A DNA stretch of 64,000 bases from positions 992,001-1,056,000 of the forward strand of contig JAGYIL010000001.1 in NCBI GenBank assembly GCA_018402545.1, read 5' to 3'. The notes below the pieces were generated by a model. That model did not search any database, was not told where the DNA came from, and was given only the letters and a program-made list of their open reading frames with translations. Source of the DNA: Saccharospirillum sp. GTDB lineage: Bacteria; Pseudomonadota; Gammaproteobacteria; Pseudomonadales; Natronospirillaceae. The translations under genes and the position numbers were made by a program. Positions 6,167-62,439 of the stretch are shown here, piece after piece (positions within the stretch are counted from its first letter, which is position 1; every line of letters begins with the position of its first letter).

Positions 6167-6181
6167 TGGCAAGGCGTTTGC
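6167..6181 (+). promoter_or_regulatory. Sigma-54 (−24/−12) promoter before motY
   Basis: TGGCAAGGCGTTTGC matches TGGCAC-N5-TTGC with one change, and the invariant GG and GC are ten bases apart as required. Predicted start of transcription is near 6193, about 70 bases before the motY ATG. Sigma-54 with FleQ/FlrA-type activators drives many polar-flagellum genes, which fits. Confidence 0.65.
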
Positions 6182-52047: not shown

Positions 52048-53256
52048 TTAAAACCGGCTATTTAACCAGTCGCCCAGCGCCTGACGTTGTTCATCTGTCA
52101 TTTCCGTGCGGTTCATGAATGGCATGTCCTTGCTGGCCACGGTGCGGGCATGGATGCGGCTGGCCCAGCGTTCGACGTCATCGAGATTGCTGAACACCAC
52201 GCCTGAGGGCGCGGTCGGAAACATGCTGTCTGAGGGTTCCCGGCTGTGGCAGGTGGCGCATTTTTCGATGACCAGTGCCAGGCCTTCTTCGTCGCTGAGC
52301 ACGGGTGTTGCGGTATCGCTGTTACCGCCGCCGGTGCCGGACTGCCGGGATGTATCGGGCCAGGAGAGGGCACCCGCCACTGCGACAAAGGCCAAACTGG
52401 CGACGACCAGAATCAGCGGTTTGCGGATGCCCCGATGGGCCAGATTGAAGTAATGGCGCACCACCACGGTGATCAGAATCAGTGCCATCAGGATCAGCCA
52501 GTTCAGGCTGTGCTGATAGGTCATTGGGTAGTGATTGCTGATCATGATGAAAATAACCGGCAACGTCAGATAGTTGTTGTGAACACTGCGTTGTTTGCCT
52601 TCCAGTCCCGGTCGGGCATCCGGTTGTTCGCCCCGGGCGACGGCAGCGACCATTTTCTTCTGACCGGGAATGATTTTGACAAAGACGTTGGCGGCCATGA
52701 TGGTGCCGATTAACGCACCCATGTGTATGTAGGCGCCCCGGCCGGAAAAGGTTTCGGTCATCAGCCAGGCCATGCCGGTACCCAGTATGAACAATACGGC
52801 GCTAAAGGCTTTGTGTTCAACCAGAGGGGTGCGGCACAGGCCTTCATAGATCAGCCACCCAATGGCGGTGTAAAGCAGGCCCAGGCCAACCGCTGCTCCA
52901 GTACTGAGTTCGCGGACACCCGGGTCGATCAGGTAAGCCTGGGCGCCAAAATAATAGACCCAGGTCAACAGCAGCATGCCGGTGATCCAGGTGGTGTAGG
53001 CCTCCCATTTGAACCAGTGCAGTTCTTTGGGCATCTCCGTGGGGCCGACCTTGTACTTGGCCACTTCGTAGAAGCCGCCGCCATGAATGGCCCAGAGATC
53101 GCCACCGATACCCTTGTCTTTTTTCCACTGGGGCGGGTCGGTCAGGTGGTTGTCGAGCCAGATGAAATAAAACGACGCGCCGATCCAGGCGATGCCGGCG
53201 ATGACGTGGAACCAGCGCAGCAGCAGGCTGACCCAGTCGGCAAAAAAGACATCCAT
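52048..53256 (-). CDS. puuD: Urate hydroxylase PuuD (membrane, cytochrome c domain)
   Basis: 402 residues. About eight membrane helices occupy the first 300 (SLLLRWFHVIAGIAWIGASF, with conserved histidines). A C-terminal cytochrome c domain follows with the heme motif CATCH near residue 336 and a distal methionine in the DMPFMN region. PuuD oxidises urate to 5-hydroxyisourate and passes electrons to the respiratory chain. It is the last gene of the purine operon, three bases after uraH. Confidence 0.93.
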   Translation of the reverse strand: MDVFFADWVSLLLRWFHVIAGIAWIGASFYFIWLDNHLTDPPQWKKDKGIGGDLWAIHGGGFYEVAKYKVGPTEMPKELHWFKWEAYTTWITGMLLLTWVYYFGAQAYLIDPGVRELSTGAAVGLGLLYTAIGWLIYEGLCRTPLVEHKAFSAVLFILGTGMAWLMTETFSGRGAYIHMGALIGTIMAANVFVKIIPGQKKMVAAVARGEQPDARPGLEGKQRSVHNNYLTLPVIFIMISNHYPMTYQHSLNWLILMALILITVVVRHYFNLAHRGIRKPLILVVASLAFVAVAGALSWPDTSRQSGTGGGNSDTATPVLSDEEGLALVIEKCATCHSREPSDSMFPTAPSGVVFSNLDDVERWASRIHARTVASKDMPFMNRTEMTDEQRQALGDWLNSRF

Positions 53257-53259
53257 CGG

Positions 53260-53589
53260 TTAACTCCCGCGATAGGTTGAGTAGCTGTAGGGGCTGACCA
53301 GCAAGGGCACATGGAAATGCGCGTCCGGTCCGGTCAGTTCGAAACAGATGCTGGCTCTGGGGTAGAAGGCCTGGCCATGCTGACGGGTCAGGTAGTCGCC
53401 AGTGTGAAAGGTCAGCTCGTAGATGCCACTTGCAAAGCCCTCTACAGGCCAGTCTTTGAAACGACCATCCTCGTTGGTGAGGCCTTCGGCAATGATCTGG
53501 CCCTGGTCGTCTTTCAAGGTCAGCTTCAGGCCCTGTGCGGGTTGCCCGAGTGTTGTATCCAGTACATGGGTCGAGAGGGTATGACTCAT
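53260..53589 (-). CDS. uraH: 5-hydroxyisourate hydrolase
   Basis: A 109-residue transthyretin-like protein. HVLDTTLGQPA at the N-terminus and the C-terminal tetrapeptide YRGS are diagnostic of HIU hydrolase and distinguish it from transthyretin. It has no signal peptide, so it is cytoplasmic. It converts the PuuD product to OHCU for UraD. It starts 16 bases after uraD. Confidence 0.95.
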   Translation of the reverse strand: MSHTLSTHVLDTTLGQPAQGLKLTLKDDQGQIIAEGLTNEDGRFKDWPVEGFASGIYELTFHTGDYLTRQHGQAFYPRASICFELTGPDAHFHVPLLVSPYSYSTYRGS

Positions 53590-53605: not shown

Positions 53606-54115
53606 TTAGGCGTCAGTGAGCTGGGTATCCAGCCTGAGCAAGGTGATTTTCAATTGTTGGGCGGCGGCCAGTTTCAGTTCCTGTTCCGTCGAGTTGTTGA
53701 TGCGGGCGCGCAGTTGATCGAGCATCTGATCGGCACTTTTGCCGCTGGCAAAGACAATGAATATGAACCCGTGCCGGTCCAGGTAGGCCTGGTTTTCGTC
53801 AGCGAGGGCCTGCAAGGTCTCGTCGCTGGCGCCGTCAACGCCCGACTGTTCCTGGCTGGAATGGCCGCGGCTGCTTTGGTATCTGGCACGCAAGGTATCC
53901 AGGTTGCCAATCATCGGGTGGCCGTCGAAGGCTTCCCGCCAGTCGCGCTCGTTCATGGTGGCCCAGTGGTCTCTGGCGGCGCTCAGAACGGCCTCTTTGC
54001 TGGCGAACGGGGCACTCTGTGTCATCCGTTCCACCCAGCGCACGGCAGCGCACTGGCTGTGGAAAAAGTCGGCCCGTTCCTGTGAGCTGGCGTTGTTGAG
54101 TTCATCCAGTGTCAT
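53606..54115 (-). CDS. uraD: OHCU decarboxylase
   Basis: A 169-residue UraD protein. Signatures are the catalytic-histidine region FDGHPMIGNLDTL, the motif GHSSQEQSG and the C-terminal FIFVFASGKSADQML-like strand. It decarboxylates OHCU to S-allantoin. Its start overlaps the xdhC stop (ATGA). Confidence 0.93.
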   Translation of the reverse strand: MTLDELNNASSQERADFFHSQCAAVRWVERMTQSAPFASKEAVLSAARDHWATMNERDWREAFDGHPMIGNLDTLRARYQSSRGHSSQEQSGVDGASDETLQALADENQAYLDRHGFIFIVFASGKSADQMLDQLRARINNSTEQELKLAAAQQLKITLLRLDTQLTDA

Positions 54116-55002
54116 GCGTTCTGTCCCTTTTGAGCGGTTTCTATGGCCGCATCGGCATTGGAGCTGCTCAGTGCCTGGCCGGTTTTCCAGTTCAGACCGG
54201 TGGTCTTTTTGCCAGCGTCGGCCGGGCGTTTTGCGTGCAAGCGGTTCAGCAGTTGCGCTGCGATGGAAACGGCGACTTCAGCCGGTTGCTTGCCGGGCAC
54301 GGCACTCAGACCGACAGGGCAGATGACCCGATTGATGTCGCTGTCACTCCAGCCCCGGTGGGCCAGCCGCTGCTGGAAACGACGGGCTTTGGTGTCGGAG
54401 CCGATCAGCCCGATGTAGTCGAAGTCTGGCCGCTTGATGGCAGCCTGCACCAACTCGAAGTCGAGCTGGTGATTGTGGGTGATGATCAGCACCCAGGCGT
54501 TCTGAGGGGCGTCAACAATGGCGTCTGCCGGGTGTTCCAGCACCTCGCGCCGGATACGGGCGTCGGTGTTTTGTGCCAGCCACTCTGGTCGCGGGTCGAC
54601 CCAGTGCAGGTTGAGATCGAGTGGTGCCAGAATCGGCATCAGGTGCTGGGCAACGTGGCCGGCACCGAACACCAGCAGTGGCTGGCCAGCGGGAACCAGC
54701 ACTTCATACAACAACTGGGTTGCACCGCCGCAGCATTGGCCCAGGCTGGCGCCGAGGCTGATGCTTTCGACTTCGGTCGCGTTCTTACCCGCCCTGAGCA
54801 GTTCGCGGGCCCGTTCTATGGCTGTGAATTCAAGATGGCCACCGCCGATGGTGTCGAAATGCTCAGCGGCGTTGACGACCATTTTGGCAGCGGCATCGCG
54901 CGGGGTGGAACCCGCTGTGCTGAGTACCGTCACTAATACCAGCGGTTCGCGGTTGTGCTGACCTTCGTGCAGGGCGTCATACCAGCGATGGTGGTGTCTC
55001 AT
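54112..55002 (-). CDS. xdhC: Xanthine dehydrogenase accessory protein XdhC
   Basis: A 296-residue XdhC-family chaperone that inserts the sulfurated molybdenum cofactor into XdhB. The N-terminal CoxI-type part has VTVLSTAGSTPRDAAAKMVV; the cysteine-containing ASLGQCCGGATQL follows. A Rossmann part carries VFGAGHVAQHLMP. It overlaps xdhB by ATGA. Confidence 0.93.
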   Translation of the reverse strand: MRHHHRWYDALHEGQHNREPLVLVTVLSTAGSTPRDAAAKMVVNAAEHFDTIGGGHLEFTAIERARELLRAGKNATEVESISLGASLGQCCGGATQLLYEVLVPAGQPLLVFGAGHVAQHLMPILAPLDLNLHWVDPRPEWLAQNTDARIRREVLEHPADAIVDAPQNAWVLIITHNHQLDFELVQAAIKRPDFDYIGLIGSDTKARRFQQRLAHRGWSDSDINRVICPVGLSAVPGKQPAEVAVSIAAQLLNRLHAKRPADAGKKTTGLNWKTGQALSSSNADAAIETAQKGQNA

Positions 55003-57341
55003 GAAGCCTCCCGTGCCTGGTCGGCCAGCTGTTCCAGCGCGAACAGAACCTGTTCGGGCGTGGCCGGGGTGTTGAGGGCCGGGTTGATGCGGTAGTCAGC
55101 GGTGCTGGCGATGGCATCGCGCAGTGCACACCAGACTGAAATGGGCAGCATCAGCGGCGGTTCGCCCACAGCCTTCGACTTGAAGACGGTGTCTTCCCGG
55201 TTCGGCTGATCAAAGAGTTCGACATTGAATATTGGCGGCGTATCGCCGATCGAAGGAATCTTGTAAGTCGCCGGGCTGTTCGACAACAAACGGCCTTCGT
55301 CATTCCACTTCAGCTCTTCGGTGGTCAGCCAGCCCATGCCCTGAATAAAGCCGCCTTCTATCTGGCCGATGTCGATGGCCGGGTTCAGGCTGTCGCCGAC
55401 GTCGTGCAGGATATCGACCCGGTCTACAGCGTATTCGCCGGTCAGCGTATCGATGGTGACTTCCGAGCAGGAAGCTCCGTAGGCGAAGTACAGGAACGGT
55501 CGGCCTTTGCCGGTTGCGGCATCCCAGTGGAGTTTTGGGGTACGGTAGTAGCCGGTTGCCGACAGCGATATCCGGTTCATATAAGCCGTTTGCACCAGAT
55601 CGGCGAAGGTCAGGCGGTGCTCGCCGATCTGCACCTGGCCGTTATTAAATTCGATCTGATCGGGGCGCACTTTGTAATGGTCTGTCGCGAATTCGACCAG
55701 TCGTTGCTTGATAGTGCGGGCCGCGTTCTGCGCCGCCGCACCGTTCAGGTCGGTGCCGCTCGACGCCGCCGTAGGCGAGGTGTTCGGTACTTTATCGGTA
55801 CGGGTAGCCGACGACTGAACCGTGGCCAGCGGCACCGAAAACTCGGTGGCGACAATCTGCGCTACCTTGGTGAACAGACCCTGGCCCATTTCGGTGCCAC
55901 CGTGGTTCAGATAAATACTGCCATCGGTGTACAGATGAATCAGCGCACCGGCCTGATTCAGGTGTTTGGCGGTGAAGGAAATGCCGAATTTTACCGGCGT
56001 CAGTGCGAGCCCTTTTTTGATGATGGGGCTGCGGGCGTTGAAGTCGCGAATGGCCTCGCGACGCGTCCAATAGTCGGCGCTGTGTTCGAGCCGTCCAATC
56101 AGCTCGGGCAAAATGTTGTCGGTCACCGTCATGTGATAGGGCGTGACGTTGCGTCCCTCATCACCGTACAAGTTGCGTTTGCGAATGGTCAGCGGGTCTT
56201 CACCCAGGTTACGGGCGATGCCATCCATCGCCGCTTCAATGGTCATCATGCCCTGAGGACCGCCAAAACCCCGAAAGGCGGTGTTGGATGCCGTGTTGGT
56301 GCGACACCGGTAGCCGGTGATATGGGCTTCATTCAGAAAGTAGCCGTTGTCAGCATGAAACATGGCCCGGTCGACAATGGCGTTTGACAGGTCAGGAGAG
56401 AAGCCGCACAGGCCGTTAACCTCGATATCGGCCGCCTGAATGTGGCCCGACTCGTCGTAGCCGAGCGTCCAGCGGTTGACAAAGGGGTGGCGCTTGCCGG
56501 TGGTGGTCATGTCCTGGCCGCGTGGCAGGCGCAGCTTGACCGCACGCCCGGTTTTGCGGGCCAGCAGCGCGGCGATGCAGGCCCATTGCGCTGCCTGAGT
56601 CTCCTTGCCACCAAAACCACCGCCCATGCGACGCACATCAACGGTAACCTGGCTGAACGGAATGCCGAGCACCTCGGCCACCAGTTTTTGCACTTCACTC
56701 GGGTGCTGACTGGAGGTGTACACCAGCATGCCGCCGTCTTCTTCGGGAATGACCAGGCTTACCTGGCCTTCCAGGTAAAAATGTTCCTGCCCGCCGATGT
56801 GGATTTCGCCACTGGTGGTGTGGGTGGCGTTGGCCAGACCCGTTAACGCATCGCCCCGGCGAAATTGAACGGTATCGCCGACATAGGTTTCAGCGGCCCG
56901 AGCCTGATCGACTGTCAGAATGGCGTCTCCCGGTGTGATGTTCCACTCAGCCAACAGGGTAGCCTGGCGTGCCTGTTCGATGTTTTCTGCGGCAACGGCA
57001 AAAAGTGGCTGGCCGTGAAACAGAATCTGGTCGTCAGCCAGAACGGGGTCCCCCGGGTAAACGGCACCAATGTCGGTGTGGCCGGGTACGTCGGCCAGCG
57101 TCAGTGTCGCGACGACTCCTGGGGCCGTGGCGACTTTATTGATGTTGAGCGAATTCAGGGTGCCGGCCGCAACATCCGACAGAGCTACCGCCGCGTGCAG
57201 CAGGTTGGCCGGTTCCGGCAGGTCGTCCACATAGCGCGCCTGGCCACTAACCTGGCGGGCGGCGCTTTCGTGGGCAACGGCGGCACCGCGATGGCCCTGT
57301 GATACTGCCTCCGGTAAACGGGTTTCAGTCAGCTTACGCAT
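54999..57341 (-). CDS. xdhB: Xanthine dehydrogenase molybdopterin-binding subunit
   Basis: A 780-residue large subunit of the two-subunit bacterial xanthine dehydrogenase. GGGFGGKETQAAQWA is the cofactor-binding motif; FRGFGGPQGMMTIEAAMD contains the active-site arginine region; VGEPPLMLPISVWCALRDA near the end contains the catalytic-glutamate region. It hydroxylates hypoxanthine and xanthine to urate. The start overlaps xdhA by eight bases. Confidence 0.95.
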   Translation of the reverse strand: MRKLTETRLPEAVSQGHRGAAVAHESAARQVSGQARYVDDLPEPANLLHAAVALSDVAAGTLNSLNINKVATAPGVVATLTLADVPGHTDIGAVYPGDPVLADDQILFHGQPLFAVAAENIEQARQATLLAEWNITPGDAILTVDQARAAETYVGDTVQFRRGDALTGLANATHTTSGEIHIGGQEHFYLEGQVSLVIPEEDGGMLVYTSSQHPSEVQKLVAEVLGIPFSQVTVDVRRMGGGFGGKETQAAQWACIAALLARKTGRAVKLRLPRGQDMTTTGKRHPFVNRWTLGYDESGHIQAADIEVNGLCGFSPDLSNAIVDRAMFHADNGYFLNEAHITGYRCRTNTASNTAFRGFGGPQGMMTIEAAMDGIARNLGEDPLTIRKRNLYGDEGRNVTPYHMTVTDNILPELIGRLEHSADYWTRREAIRDFNARSPIIKKGLALTPVKFGISFTAKHLNQAGALIHLYTDGSIYLNHGGTEMGQGLFTKVAQIVATEFSVPLATVQSSATRTDKVPNTSPTAASSGTDLNGAAAQNAARTIKQRLVEFATDHYKVRPDQIEFNNGQVQIGEHRLTFADLVQTAYMNRISLSATGYYRTPKLHWDAATGKGRPFLYFAYGASCSEVTIDTLTGEYAVDRVDILHDVGDSLNPAIDIGQIEGGFIQGMGWLTTEELKWNDEGRLLSNSPATYKIPSIGDTPPIFNVELFDQPNREDTVFKSKAVGEPPLMLPISVWCALRDAIASTADYRINPALNTPATPEQVLFALEQLADQAREAS

Positions 57342-58797
57342 GGTCTAACCCTCCATGGGTGTGTACCCGGGTGGGGGTATCTGGCTGGGTCGTCTCGAGA
57401 TGAAACCGCCGGAACAGATTGGCGGTAACCTGCACCCGGTAACGGGCACTGGCGCGAACGTCGTCTATGGGCGCCAGGGCGTCGGCGAGCGTCCGGCTGA
57501 TGGCGTCAACTGCAACGGTTGGCCAGTGCTGCCCGATCAGCTGGTCTTGCCAGTCGGCCAGCACCAGGGGCGTCGCTGCCAGGCCACCGAAGCCCGCGCG
57601 CAGGCAGGTGACGGTGTCGTTCGAGTCGGTCTCAAGGTAGAACACCACGCAAACGGTTGAGATATCGTCTTCGAAGCGTTTCGATATTTTGTAGGCCCGC
57701 AGCTGGCTGCCAGGCTGGCGGCGGGGAAGGTGTATAGTGTCGATCCATTCATCGTCGGCCAGAACAGTCTGGCGGTAGCCGGTAATCAGCTCGCTGACTG
57801 GCAGGGTGCGTTCGGTCTGGCCATTACTCAGGGTGACGGTTGCCCCCAGGGCAATCAATAGCGGTGGCGTGTCGCCAATGGGCGAGGCATTGCCCAGGTT
57901 GCCACCCAGGGTGCCCCGGTTCCGGATTGGCCGGGACCCCAGCCGCTCCAGCCATTCGCGAGCTTCCGGATAGTCCGCCAGCAGCGTCGGTTCAAGATCG
58001 GTGTAACTGACGGCAGCGCCGATGTGCAGGCCCTCATCATCAACTCGGATGTGATTCAACTCAGCCACCTGGCTCAGGTCAATCAGGGCGTTCAGGTTGG
58101 CCAAACGCTGGGTCTTTTCCAGCGCCAGGTCGGTACTGCCAGCACTGAATCGGGCGCCCGGTGCCTGGGCCCGGGCTTTGGCCAGGTCCTGACGAGTTCT
58201 GGGCTGCCAGAAGCCGACCGCATGGTCAGTTTTTGTTTCTTCCGGTAACACCGGCGTTTCCAGACTTCTCAATTCAGCTTCAATGTCGGCGATCTGAGCG
58301 CTGAATGCATCGCCATGACGCTGTTCAAGCAAGGCCATGCCTGCATCGATAATCGGGCGGTAACCGGTGCAGCGACAAAGGTTACCCGACAGGGCCGTTA
58401 AGACCGCCTCCCGGCTAGGTGCCACGTCGCTGTGATAGAGCGCAAAGAGGCTCATTACAAAGCCCGGTGTACAGAACCCGCACTGGGAACCATGGTGCTC
58501 CACCAATGCCTGCTGTACCGGGTGCAGGGCACCTGCCTGTTCCAGATGTTCAACGGTGAGTAACTGTTTGCCATGCAGGCTGTGCACGAAGGTTATGCAG
58601 CTGTTCAGGCTGCGATAGCGCATGCCCTGATCGGTCAGTTCGCCAACCACCACTGTACAGGCGCCACAGTCACCGGAGGCACAGCCTTCTTTGGTGCCGG
58701 TCAGATGTGCCTGTTCACGCAGGTAATCCAGTACCGTGAGGTCGGGGTCGGTCTTGGCCAGAGTCACGGGCTGGCGATTTAATAGAAAGTCGGTCAT
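57334..58797 (-). CDS. xdhA: Xanthine dehydrogenase small subunit (2Fe-2S/FAD)
   Basis: 487 residues from the ATG at 58797, which has GAGG at good spacing; the track start is four residues longer. The plant-type cluster ligands are in EGCASGDCGACTVV, the second cluster in CGFCTPGFVMS and CRCTGYRPI, and the FAD domain from about residue 190 contains GGNLGNASPIGDTPP. It passes electrons from XdhB to NAD. It is the first gene of xdhABC-uraD-uraH-puuD, behind a sigma-54 promoter. Confidence 0.95.
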   Translation of the reverse strand: MTDFLLNRQPVTLAKTDPDLTVLDYLREQAHLTGTKEGCASGDCGACTVVVGELTDQGMRYRSLNSCITFVHSLHGKQLLTVEHLEQAGALHPVQQALVEHHGSQCGFCTPGFVMSLFALYHSDVAPSREAVLTALSGNLCRCTGYRPIIDAGMALLEQRHGDAFSAQIADIEAELRSLETPVLPEETKTDHAVGFWQPRTRQDLAKARAQAPGARFSAGSTDLALEKTQRLANLNALIDLSQVAELNHIRVDDEGLHIGAAVSYTDLEPTLLADYPEAREWLERLGSRPIRNRGTLGGNLGNASPIGDTPPLLIALGATVTLSNGQTERTLPVSELITGYRQTVLADDEWIDTIHLPRRQPGSQLRAYKISKRFEDDISTVCVVFYLETDSNDTVTCLRAGFGGLAATPLVLADWQDQLIGQHWPTVAVDAISRTLADALAPIDDVRASARYRVQVTANLFRRFHLETTQPDTPTRVHTHGGLDHA

Positions 58798-58898
58798 AGC
58801 GCCTCGCAAAGACTACCCGGCGGCATAACCCGGGCGCTCTTCGTTGTGATGTCGATTATTGCTTCTGCGAGCATGGCCTGCTCATTATGTAACGATTG

Positions 58899-58949
58899 TT
58901 ATGGCCAAACTCATAGCAAGTTCAAGGCCATAATATGACCGACTGGTCA
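58899..58949. promoter_or_regulatory. Two inverted repeats over the xdhA promoter
   Basis: TTATGGCC (58899–58906) and GGCCATAA (58926–58933) are perfect 8-bp arms that flank the −12/−24 region. TGACC-N4-GGTCA (58936–58949) lies just upstream. Both look like operators; a purine-responsive repressor could use them, but no regulator gene is near. Confidence 0.45.
58916..58930 (-). promoter_or_regulatory. Sigma-54 (−24/−12) promoter of the xdh operon
   Basis: On the minus strand TGGCCTTGAACTTGC has an intact −12 TTGC and −24 TGGC with GG and GC ten bases apart. Predicted start is near 58904, about 107 bases before xdhA. An NtrC-type box sits about 130 bp upstream of that start. Confidence 0.68.
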
Positions 58950-59017
58950 GGAAAGGTAAAGTCCCGGTTAACCGTCGGTTTTTCGCAGCTTACTCAGGGG
59001 TGCTTTGGTTACGGGGT

Positions 59018-59569
59018 CTACTTTTGTGCACTAAATTGGTGCGAGCTCTCTGAAAACGCCGTCAGCCAGTGCGGATGCTCGTCTGCGATGAGTTGTACAA
59101 GTGAAGCCAGGCGTGCATTTGAAAGCTGTCGGTAGTCGAAATAGGGCGTTACGATGACTGACTGTTCCGGGTGTTGAACAAAGGGGTGTTCAGCGGGCAA
59201 CACCTGATCATCGGCCAGCCAGTCCAGGGAGCGCCCGTAAGTCTGGCCCATCACGATGCAAAGCTGCCCGGGCTCGGGGATCCACTTGTGTTCAAACACC
59301 AATGCACAAGCCGAGCCGCTTTGCAGCAGGCGCTGTTCGCGGCAGGTTTGCCAGTCGGGTTCCAGCGGTGTCAGGCCGTGCAGTAGTTTTGCGTAGAGAT
59401 TGAAAATCTTGCGCCAGTGATTGCCGCCGGCTTGAGTTAGCTGTTCTAGCTGGTTCCGTACCAGAGGCAGAACCCCCTTTGAACGATCCGACTGAATGCC
59501 CGGGGGCCTGTGTGGTGTGCATACCACGAGTAAGGGAGAGCGATCTCCAAGTCCGGATAAGCTGAACAT
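59018..59569 (-). CDS. DUF6942-like hypothetical protein
   Basis: 183 residues from the ATG at 59569. The track's 375-residue frame runs antisense through puuE and is not real. No signal peptide or membrane helix is seen. Features are GDRSPLLVVCTPHRPPG, KIFNLYAKLLHG, HKWIPEPGQLCIVMGQTYG and VIVTPYFDYRQLSNARL. From memory this resembles the uncharacterised DUF6942 family of marine gammaproteobacteria; no function is known. Its last codons contain the NtrC-type box for the xdh promoter. Confidence 0.7.
   Translation of the reverse strand: MFSLSGLGDRSPLLVVCTPHRPPGIQSDRSKGVLPLVRNQLEQLTQAGGNHWRKIFNLYAKLLHGLTPLEPDWQTCREQRLLQSGSACALVFEHKWIPEPGQLCIVMGQTYGRSLDWLADDQVLPAEHPFVQHPEQSVIVTPYFDYRQLSNARLASLVQLIADEHPHWLTAFSESSHQFSAQK
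59027..59043. promoter_or_regulatory. NtrC-type box upstream of xdhA
   Basis: TGCACTAAATTGGTGCG fits the 17-bp NtrC form TGCACY-N5-GGTGCA with one end base different. Its centre is about 130 bp before the predicted xdhA transcription start, a normal enhancer distance. It lies inside the 3' end of the DUF6942-like gene. Confidence 0.65.
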
Positions 59570-59677
59570 TGCGAATAAGCTCCCCGTGCAATGAGTTAAA
59601 AATTGTCTAGCGTTGTAATTCGTGCCTAAATATTTGCATGCTGGTTGCGTCTGACTCAAGAAATACAGGAGATGTGT

Positions 59678-60598
59678 GTGAATCACCCGACCTTTGATCC
59701 CTCCTACCCCAGAGACCTGATTGGGTATGGCGCCCACCCGCCGAAAGCAAACTGGCCCGGTAAAGCCCGTGTGGCGGTACAGTTTGTGATTAATTATGAG
59801 GAAGGAGGTGAGCAGTGCATTTTGCATGGTGACAGCGAATCCGAACGGTTCCTGTCTGAAATTGTTGGGGCCGAGTCGTACTCGGACCGGCACCTGAGTA
59901 TGGAAAGCCTTTACGAATACGGCAGCCGGGCAGGGTTTTGGCGGTTGCATCGTTTGTTCACCGAGCGAAACATTCCGGTGACGGTGTTTGGCGTGGCCAT
60001 GGCCATGCAGCGCAACCCGGAGGCTGTGGAAGCCATGCTCAAAGCCGACTGGGAAATTGCCTCTCACGGTTACCGCTGGATTCATTATCAGCATGTCCCT
60101 GAATCGGTCGAGCGCGAGCATCTGGAGCGGGCGCTGGATATTCACCGCGCCATGACCGGTTCCACACCAGCAGGCTGGTACCTGGGTCGAACCTCGCCCA
60201 ATTCCCTCAAACTGATCGCCGAGCGCGACGATATTCTGTATTGCGCCGACAGCTATGCCGATGACCTGCCGTATTACGACCTGAACTACAGTCGTCCGCT
60301 ATTAATGGTTCCTTATACCCTGGACACCAACGACATGCGCTTCGCAACGCCCCAGGGTTTTAACAGCGGGGATCAGTTCTTCAGTCACCTGCGCGATGCA
60401 TTCGATGTGCTGTACGAGGAAGGCGAGACAGCACCGAAGATGCTGAGTATTGGGCTGCACTGTCGATTGGTGGGCCGGCCGGCTCGGCTGGCGGCATTAA
60501 GACGCTTTATTGATCATGTACTGGCGCACGACAAGGTATGGGTGACCACCCGGGAAGCCATTGCCCGGCATTGGCTGGATGAACATCCGCTGAGCTAA
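59678..60598 (+). CDS. puuE: Allantoinase PuuE (polysaccharide deacetylase family)
   Basis: A 306-residue NodB-fold protein of the PuuE type. YPRDLIGYGAHPPKANWPG at the N-terminus, RVAVQFVINYEEGGEQCILHGD and TPAGWYLGRTSPNS are characteristic of metal-independent allantoinase, which hydrolyses allantoin to allantoate. The start is set at the GTG (59678) because AGGAG ends six bases before it; the ATG at 59672 touches the AGGAG. Together with the xdh operon it takes purines to allantoate; later steps are not in the window. Confidence 0.92.
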   Translation: MNHPTFDPSYPRDLIGYGAHPPKANWPGKARVAVQFVINYEEGGEQCILHGDSESERFLSEIVGAESYSDRHLSMESLYEYGSRAGFWRLHRLFTERNIPVTVFGVAMAMQRNPEAVEAMLKADWEIASHGYRWIHYQHVPESVEREHLERALDIHRAMTGSTPAGWYLGRTSPNSLKLIAERDDILYCADSYADDLPYYDLNYSRPLLMVPYTLDTNDMRFATPQGFNSGDQFFSHLRDAFDVLYEEGETAPKMLSIGLHCRLVGRPARLAALRRFIDHVLAHDKVWVTTREAIARHWLDEHPLS

Positions 60599-62300: not shown

Positions 62301-62315
62301 GCAAGGCCTGTGCCA
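62301..62315 (-). promoter_or_regulatory. Sigma-54 (−24/−12) promoter of glnA
   Basis: On the minus strand TGGCACAGGCCTTGC, then T, is a full match to TGGCAC-N5-TTGC. Predicted start is near 62290, giving a leader of about 180 bases before glnA. The arrangement is like glnAp2 of enteric bacteria. Confidence 0.88.
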
Positions 62316-62379: not shown

Positions 62380-62439
62380 TGCACTATGGTGGTGCGTCTT
62401 TCCGATCACTGCACTGTGGTAGGGCACTGATTTGGTGCG
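62380..62439. promoter_or_regulatory. Pair of NtrC-type boxes upstream of glnA
   Basis: TGCACTATGGTGGTGCG (62380–62396) and GGCACTGATTTGGTGCG (62423–62439) both fit the 17-bp dyad with a 5-base centre. Their centres are about 98 and 141 bp before the predicted start, close to the −108 and −140 enhancers of E. coli glnA. Confidence 0.8.

Follow-up and report, generated by a model that had tools for sequence, protein, structure and literature searches.

In Escherichia coli, rutAG is controlled by both NtrC and RutR (PMC10891134; PMC8743547), and the site recognised by RutR is a palindrome roughly 16 bp long (PMC10891134). In Burkholderia cenocepacia, xdhA, xdhB and a urate oxidase cluster belong to the common targets of sigma-54 and NtrC in an RNA-Seq study (PMC5491218), and for the hpx genes of Klebsiella pneumoniae a secondary account describes NtrC-activated purine catabolism that needs both nitrogen limitation and a purine (PMC9240774, citing de la Riva 2008). 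These Klebsiella and Burkholderia cases are precedents for purine catabolism under NtrC. The enzymes and local regulators of the Klebsiella hpx system differ from those of the locus described here.

The window, i.e., the whole stretch of 64,000 nucleotides that was analysed, corresponds to G000:C1:992001-1056000 of a 4.25-Mb Saccharospirillum genome. Its xdhA promoter resembles that of E. coli rutA in the order of its elements (NtrC-type sites, RutR-type box, sigma-54 promoter) and in serving nucleobase catabolism for nitrogen (PMC10891134, PMC8743547). The NtrC-type sites of rutA, recognisable only with two or three mismatches to the pattern GCACYN5RGTGC, lie 102-123 bp upstream of the -24/-12 motif, and the corresponding distance at xdhA is 112 bp. 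There are also differences. E. coli rutABCDEFG serves pyrimidine breakdown, whereas the xdhA operon is for purines; at rutA, 79 bp separate the start of the RutR box from that of the sigma-54 motif downstream of it, compared with a fixed 19 bp here; and rutR adjoins rutA in E. coli, whereas the regulator gene here is located beside a guanine deaminase gene. What appears to be new is a RutR-type repressor site fused with a sigma-54 core on purine genes, of which our literature search (regulon databases being outside its scope) found no description.

On the basis of the sites described below, we propose, with a probability of about 0.7, that xdhABC-uraD-hiuH-puuD is transcribed by sigma-54, activated by NtrC and gated by a RutR-like repressor. 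Sigma-54 RNA polymerase would transcribe the operon from the -24/-12 element at 58930-58916, and phosphorylated NtrC bound at 59027-59043 (about -131) would contact this polymerase by looping. A RutR-like TetR-family repressor, encoded beside guaD elsewhere in the genome, would bind the palindrome at 58936-58949 (about -38) and, standing directly against the -24 element, would exclude the polymerase until a nucleobase ligand binds to it. The promoter would then act as an AND gate for nitrogen shortage and an available nucleobase, and the genes for xanthine and uric acid breakdown are probably on only when both signals are present. It is predicted, in this scheme, that NtrC and the regulator bind these sites, that the regulator represses instead of activating, and that it responds to a nucleobase; the physiological consequence is likewise a prediction. 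If it is correct, purine breakdown in these bacteria takes two inputs at one compact promoter, one global (nitrogen) and one local (a nucleobase).

The xdh operon and its predicted sigma-54 promoter

The genes on the minus strand form a compact operon in the order xdhA, xdhB, xdhC, uraD, hiuH and membrane urate oxidase (puuD type), in which neighbouring genes overlap or are separated by gaps of less than 20 bp. The operon and its upstream neighbours are as follows.

57334..58797, minus strand: xdhA, xanthine dehydrogenase small subunit (TIGR02963, 565 bits, cut-off 467)
54999..57341, minus strand: xdhB, molybdopterin-binding subunit (TIGR02965, 1233 bits)
54112..55002, minus strand: xdhC, accessory protein (TIGR02964, 272 bits)
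53606..54115, minus strand: uraD, OHCU decarboxylase (TIGR03180, 155 bits, above the cut-off)
53260..53589, minus strand: hiuH, 5-hydroxyisourate hydrolase (PF00576, 119 bits)
52048..53256, minus strand: puuD-type membrane urate oxidase, last gene of the presumed six-gene operon (PF06181 Urate_ox_N, 429 bits)
59018..59569, minus strand: DUF6942 gene, with the NtrC box inside its last codons (PF22098, 143 bits)
59675..60598, plus strand: puuE, allantoinase, divergent and not behind the xdhA promoter (TIGR03212, 516 bits)

Rightward of puuE are glnA and thiI, and genes for an allantoate amidohydrolase, a class V aminotransferase and an RpiR-type regulator follow just past the right edge of the window. 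A search upstream of puuE gave no sigma-54 motif of at least 11 bits, so that the prediction for the xdhA promoter covers only part of purine breakdown. The RpiR-family gene (L183:3576-4409), which adjoins the aminotransferase and amidohydrolase genes, possibly encodes a separate regulator of later purine steps. A plasmid search with xdhA gave no match.

Three sites, together with their conservation, were observed upstream of xdhA.

58916..58930, minus strand (58930->58916): sigma-54-type -24/-12 promoter of the xdhA operon, TGGCCTTGAACTTGC (motif match, kept in five of five congeners)
58936..58949, minus strand: RutR-type palindromic operator, TGACCAGTCGGTCA, starting 19 bp upstream of the start of the sigma-54 motif and leaving a 5-bp gap
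59027..59043, no strand assigned: NtrC-binding-type box, TGCACTAAATTGGTGCG, with a perfect GCACYN5RGTGC at 59028-59042 (GCACTAAATTGGTGC) and perfect orthologous boxes in L017 and L018

The -24/-12 motif has GG and GC ten bases apart, and its geometry predicts a transcription start at about 58904, upstream of the xdhA ATG at 58797. Scored with a matrix that approximates the published consensus, the motif alone is unremarkable, as 13 positions of 128,000 reach at least 12 bits. Motifs at window positions 6167, 25129 and 15674 outscore it (14.9, 14.8 and 13.5 bits, respectively). Because of this ordinary score, an argument from the chance occurrence of the single site was dropped and conservation was used instead.

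We compared five congeners that have an xdhA orthologue (65-88% protein identity), making six species with the present genome. Within a 42-bp core upstream of xdhA, 29 columns are invariant in the six species, while the flanks have none (0 of 52 columns above and 0 of 37 below). The core consists of TGACC-N4-GGTCA, five bases and then TGG...TTGC, and all six species have the same offset of 19 bp between the first base of the palindrome and that of TGG. This conservation makes the xdhA promoter far better than chance, and the predicted sigma-54 dependence of the operon is well supported by such phylogenetic footprinting. RpoN is encoded in the genome (519 bits), and a search of 58780-59080 gave no site resembling a sigma-70 promoter.

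The NtrC-type box and its reference sites

The preliminary description had given xdhA an upstream -24/-12 promoter, which is indeed present as TGGCCTTGAACTTGC on the minus strand, and an NtrC-type box about 130 bp upstream of the predicted start. This distance is right for the transcription start, the box centre being at about -131, and wrong for the ATG, which is about 238 bp away. The box was also correctly placed in the coding end of the neighbouring gene; it is located past the Pfam domain (residues 6-161) of the DUF6942 product. The statement that glnA has the same types of box and promoter was borne out by the following reference sites in the window.

62301..62315, minus strand (62315-62301): glnA sigma-54 promoter, TGGCACAGGCCTTGC (motif match)
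62381..62395, no strand assigned: glnA NtrC box 1, GCACTATGGTGGTGC (perfect box)
62424..62438, no strand assigned: glnA NtrC box 2, GCACTGATTTGGTGC (perfect box)

The glnA promoter is stronger than that of xdhA, and its boxes lie 80 and 123 bp from the promoter motif; a box of the same form upstream of ntrBC (C5:292665) lies 96 bp from its motif. Genome-wide, 46 perfect NtrC-type boxes were found in 4.25 Mb, and at this frequency a perfect box is expected within 140 bp with p ~0.0015. Pairing of boxes with promoters was computed on stretches around each of the 46, and a good sigma-54 motif, properly placed, accompanies only a few of them, those of glnA and ntrBC included. When the boxes were ranked by the sigma-54 motif 25-400 bp downstream, the two of glnA and that of xdhA came first, xdhA directly after glnA, with ntrBC near the top. 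The genome encodes NtrC (762 bits, cut-off 559). NtrC control of xdhA in this genome is a well-supported prediction, since glnA and ntrBC have matching boxes at similar distances.

Two further perfect boxes were observed. One (G000:C1:1528461; L191:2001) lies 44 bp upstream of TGGCCGGTATCTTGCT, before a gene for a 290-aa P-loop-like protein, and the other (G000:C4:38565; L200:2001), together with a sigma-54 motif, precedes a gene for a family-3 solute-binding protein at a locus adjoining a two-component sigma-54 regulator gene. An NtrC-type box in the allantoate amidohydrolase gene (G000:C1:1057659), which falls in codons reading ALSWC, was treated as a coding coincidence, as was a box in G005 located 18 bp past an aminotransferase stop (L210:1268), apparently with the same codons.

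Among the six species, the box near xdhA is perfect in three, namely the present genome, G001 and G003, and reads CGCACCAANNNAGTGCA in the latter two. Its distance to the promoter motif is 124 bp in G003 and 273 bp in G001, so that G003 is the one congener whose perfect box lies about 80-150 bp upstream. One should consider here whether the box could be a side effect of protein coding at the end of the DUF6942 gene, because it lies within C-terminal tail codons in this genome and in G001, and the two tails resemble each other. The tail is outside the Pfam domain, however, and in G003 (L018) the DUF6942 frame ends before the box, which is conserved nonetheless past the stop codon. This argues for selection on the DNA, as conservation is not forced by protein coding, and a coding by-product is very improbable.

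Of the other species, G002 has an NtrC-like site with one mismatch and G004 has sites with two, and in the most divergent species, G005, no box within two mismatches was found near the xdhA promoter; the glnA gene of G005 does have a perfect one upstream. These imperfect boxes would fit either lineages that have lost NtrC control or sites that are weaker. Since the box is perfect in only three of six species, the NtrC step is less certain than the sigma-54 or repressor step. Another enhancer-binding protein might activate a promoter that is still under sigma-54 and RutR-like control, the NtrC box being a lineage remnant or a coincidence. Such a reading would account for the loss or decay of the box in half of the genus and for its absence from other genera retaining the composite promoter, and many NtrC-family proteins are encoded in the genome. 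We consider it rather unlikely, in view of the perfect box at a distance like those of glnA and ntrBC, its retention in two congeners across a change from coding to non-coding, and the genes inspected beside the operon, among which no enhancer-binding protein gene was seen. We also searched upstream of the xdhA promoter for a dyad of a different activator common to all congeners, and none was found. Imperfect inverted repeats of unlike sequence were observed at the same place, about 180-210 bp upstream of xdhA, in L019 and L020 (CGAACCAA...TTGGTTC); they partly resemble NtrC half-sites, and they may be hairpin terminators or degenerate NtrC site pairs.

With NtrC as the preferred activator, the earlier proposal that the xdh operon is under NtrC and sigma-54 keeps its sigma-54 part through footprinting and its NtrC part for this genome, the box being perfect in half of the species. 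Its extension to purine breakdown as part of nitrogen control applies to xdhABC-uraD-hiuH-puuD and not to puuE, and it had missed the conserved RutR-type operator. Given this operator abutting the -24 element, nitrogen control is predicted to be only half of the xdhA circuit.

The RutR-type operator and its candidate regulator

The palindrome of xdhA matches the RutR-type operator (TTGACCAnnTGGTCAA in E. coli), and the half-sites TGACC/GGTCA of the RutR family (TetR, PF08362) are the same as here. The single PF08362 match in the genome is a RutR-type regulator gene downstream of the guanine deaminase gene (guaD). Its product has 41% identity to E. coli RutR over 203 residues and contains TetR_C_3 (PF08362, 170 bits) and TetR_N (PF00440, 50 bits) domains. 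Unlike RutR, it is linked to guanine deaminase and falls below the cut-off of the RutR equivalog TIGR03613 (192.6 bits vs 368). Its ligand is possibly a purine or a pyrimidine, and this RutR-like protein is readily testable for ligand and operator.

The operator is shared with other purine-salvage genes. Of 18 such palindromes in the genome, 6 are intergenic by rough gene calls, and 4 of the intergenic ones precede guaD, xdhA, a PnrA/BMP-type (nucleoside) transporter gene and a 5'-nucleotidase gene. TGACCN4GGTCA occurs about 50 bp upstream of guaD, i.e., of the regulator's own operon, in all five species with a readable stretch, and also beside relatives of the regulator in other genera. It is present upstream of the transporter gene in six of six species and of the 5'-nucleotidase gene in five of five, two with one mismatch. 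Another TGACC palindrome, located between a dapA-like and a bcp-like gene (L182:4737) without a link to purines, was set aside as probably due to chance.

The upstream regions of guaD and pnrA contain no good sigma-54/NtrC pair, and there the palindrome covers a TTGACC hexamer resembling a sigma-70 -35 element, a position that fits a repressor. This overlap, together with the ordinary score of the xdhA sigma-54 motif, would also suit a reading in which the operator is the main control and xdhA is transcribed from a non-sigma-54 promoter, its -24/-12 resemblance being incidental. The absence of a sigma-70 match at xdhA and the invariant columns running through TGG...TTGC at fixed spacing in six species speak against this, as does the recurrence of the composite at xdhA in other genera and beside PF08362 regulators at pyrimidine-type catabolic genes, and we regard it as quite improbable.

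Distribution beyond the genus

In the wider family, PF08362 genes are present in 15 of 15 genomes with a full xdhA and in 2 of 7 without it (Fisher p 8e-4, phylogeny being ignored). The palindrome is found upstream of xdhA with at most one mismatch in 14 of the 15 and with two in the fifteenth. The combination of operator and -24/-12 motif also occurs upstream of xdhA in G007, G008, G012, G013, G016, G017 and G018, and beside PF08362 genes at pyrimidine-type preT/pyd genes, named from sequences recognised by eye, in G007, G012 and G016. No recognisable NtrC box was found in the other genera of the family that keep operator and sigma-54 motif, so another activator is possible there.

More distantly, the gene of a regulator relative (48-51% identical) adjoins xdhA in Alteromonadaceae, and xdhA there has the palindrome upstream, mostly with one mismatch. 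Among 80 xdhA loci fetched from outside the genus, which are mostly of Pseudomonas and hence not independent, 60 have a TGACC-N4-GGTCA-like box with no or one mismatch within 250 bp upstream, compared with 0.8% for shuffled sequence; other palindrome spacers yield few matches.

We give about even odds to a broader scenario, in which a branch of the RutR family became a purine-catabolism repressor of 5'-nucleotidase, nucleoside uptake, guanine deaminase and xanthine dehydrogenase. Its operator would have been fused to the sigma-54 -24 element at catabolic promoters, directly gating NtrC-dependent activation, and the same composite at purine (xdhA) and pyrimidine (preT/pyd) genes of the family would be a shared gate for nucleobase and nitrogen. 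If the proposed control of xdhA is true, it supplies a candidate regulator of xanthine dehydrogenase across a broad set of gammaproteobacteria, and it suggests that a wider nucleobase-nitrogen design includes the pyrimidine (rut) logic of E. coli as one instance.

The xdhA boxes of Pseudomonas are often tandem and asymmetric; in L035-L099, tandem TGACCNNNNAGTCA...TTGACCGAAAAGTCA boxes were observed about 90 bp upstream of xdhA. Many Pseudomonas loci also have TGGCACGANNNNNGC about 180 bp upstream, with GG-N10-GC spaced like a sigma-54 promoter and without TTGC. In G003 (C2:523000-540000; L216), a second, different xdh cluster has its own PF08362 regulator, a xanthine/uracil-permease-family gene, and HIUase-like and allantoinase-like ORFs. 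There, TGACCGATCGGTCA is located upstream of xdhA2 and near the permease gene, with no sigma-54 motif beside it.
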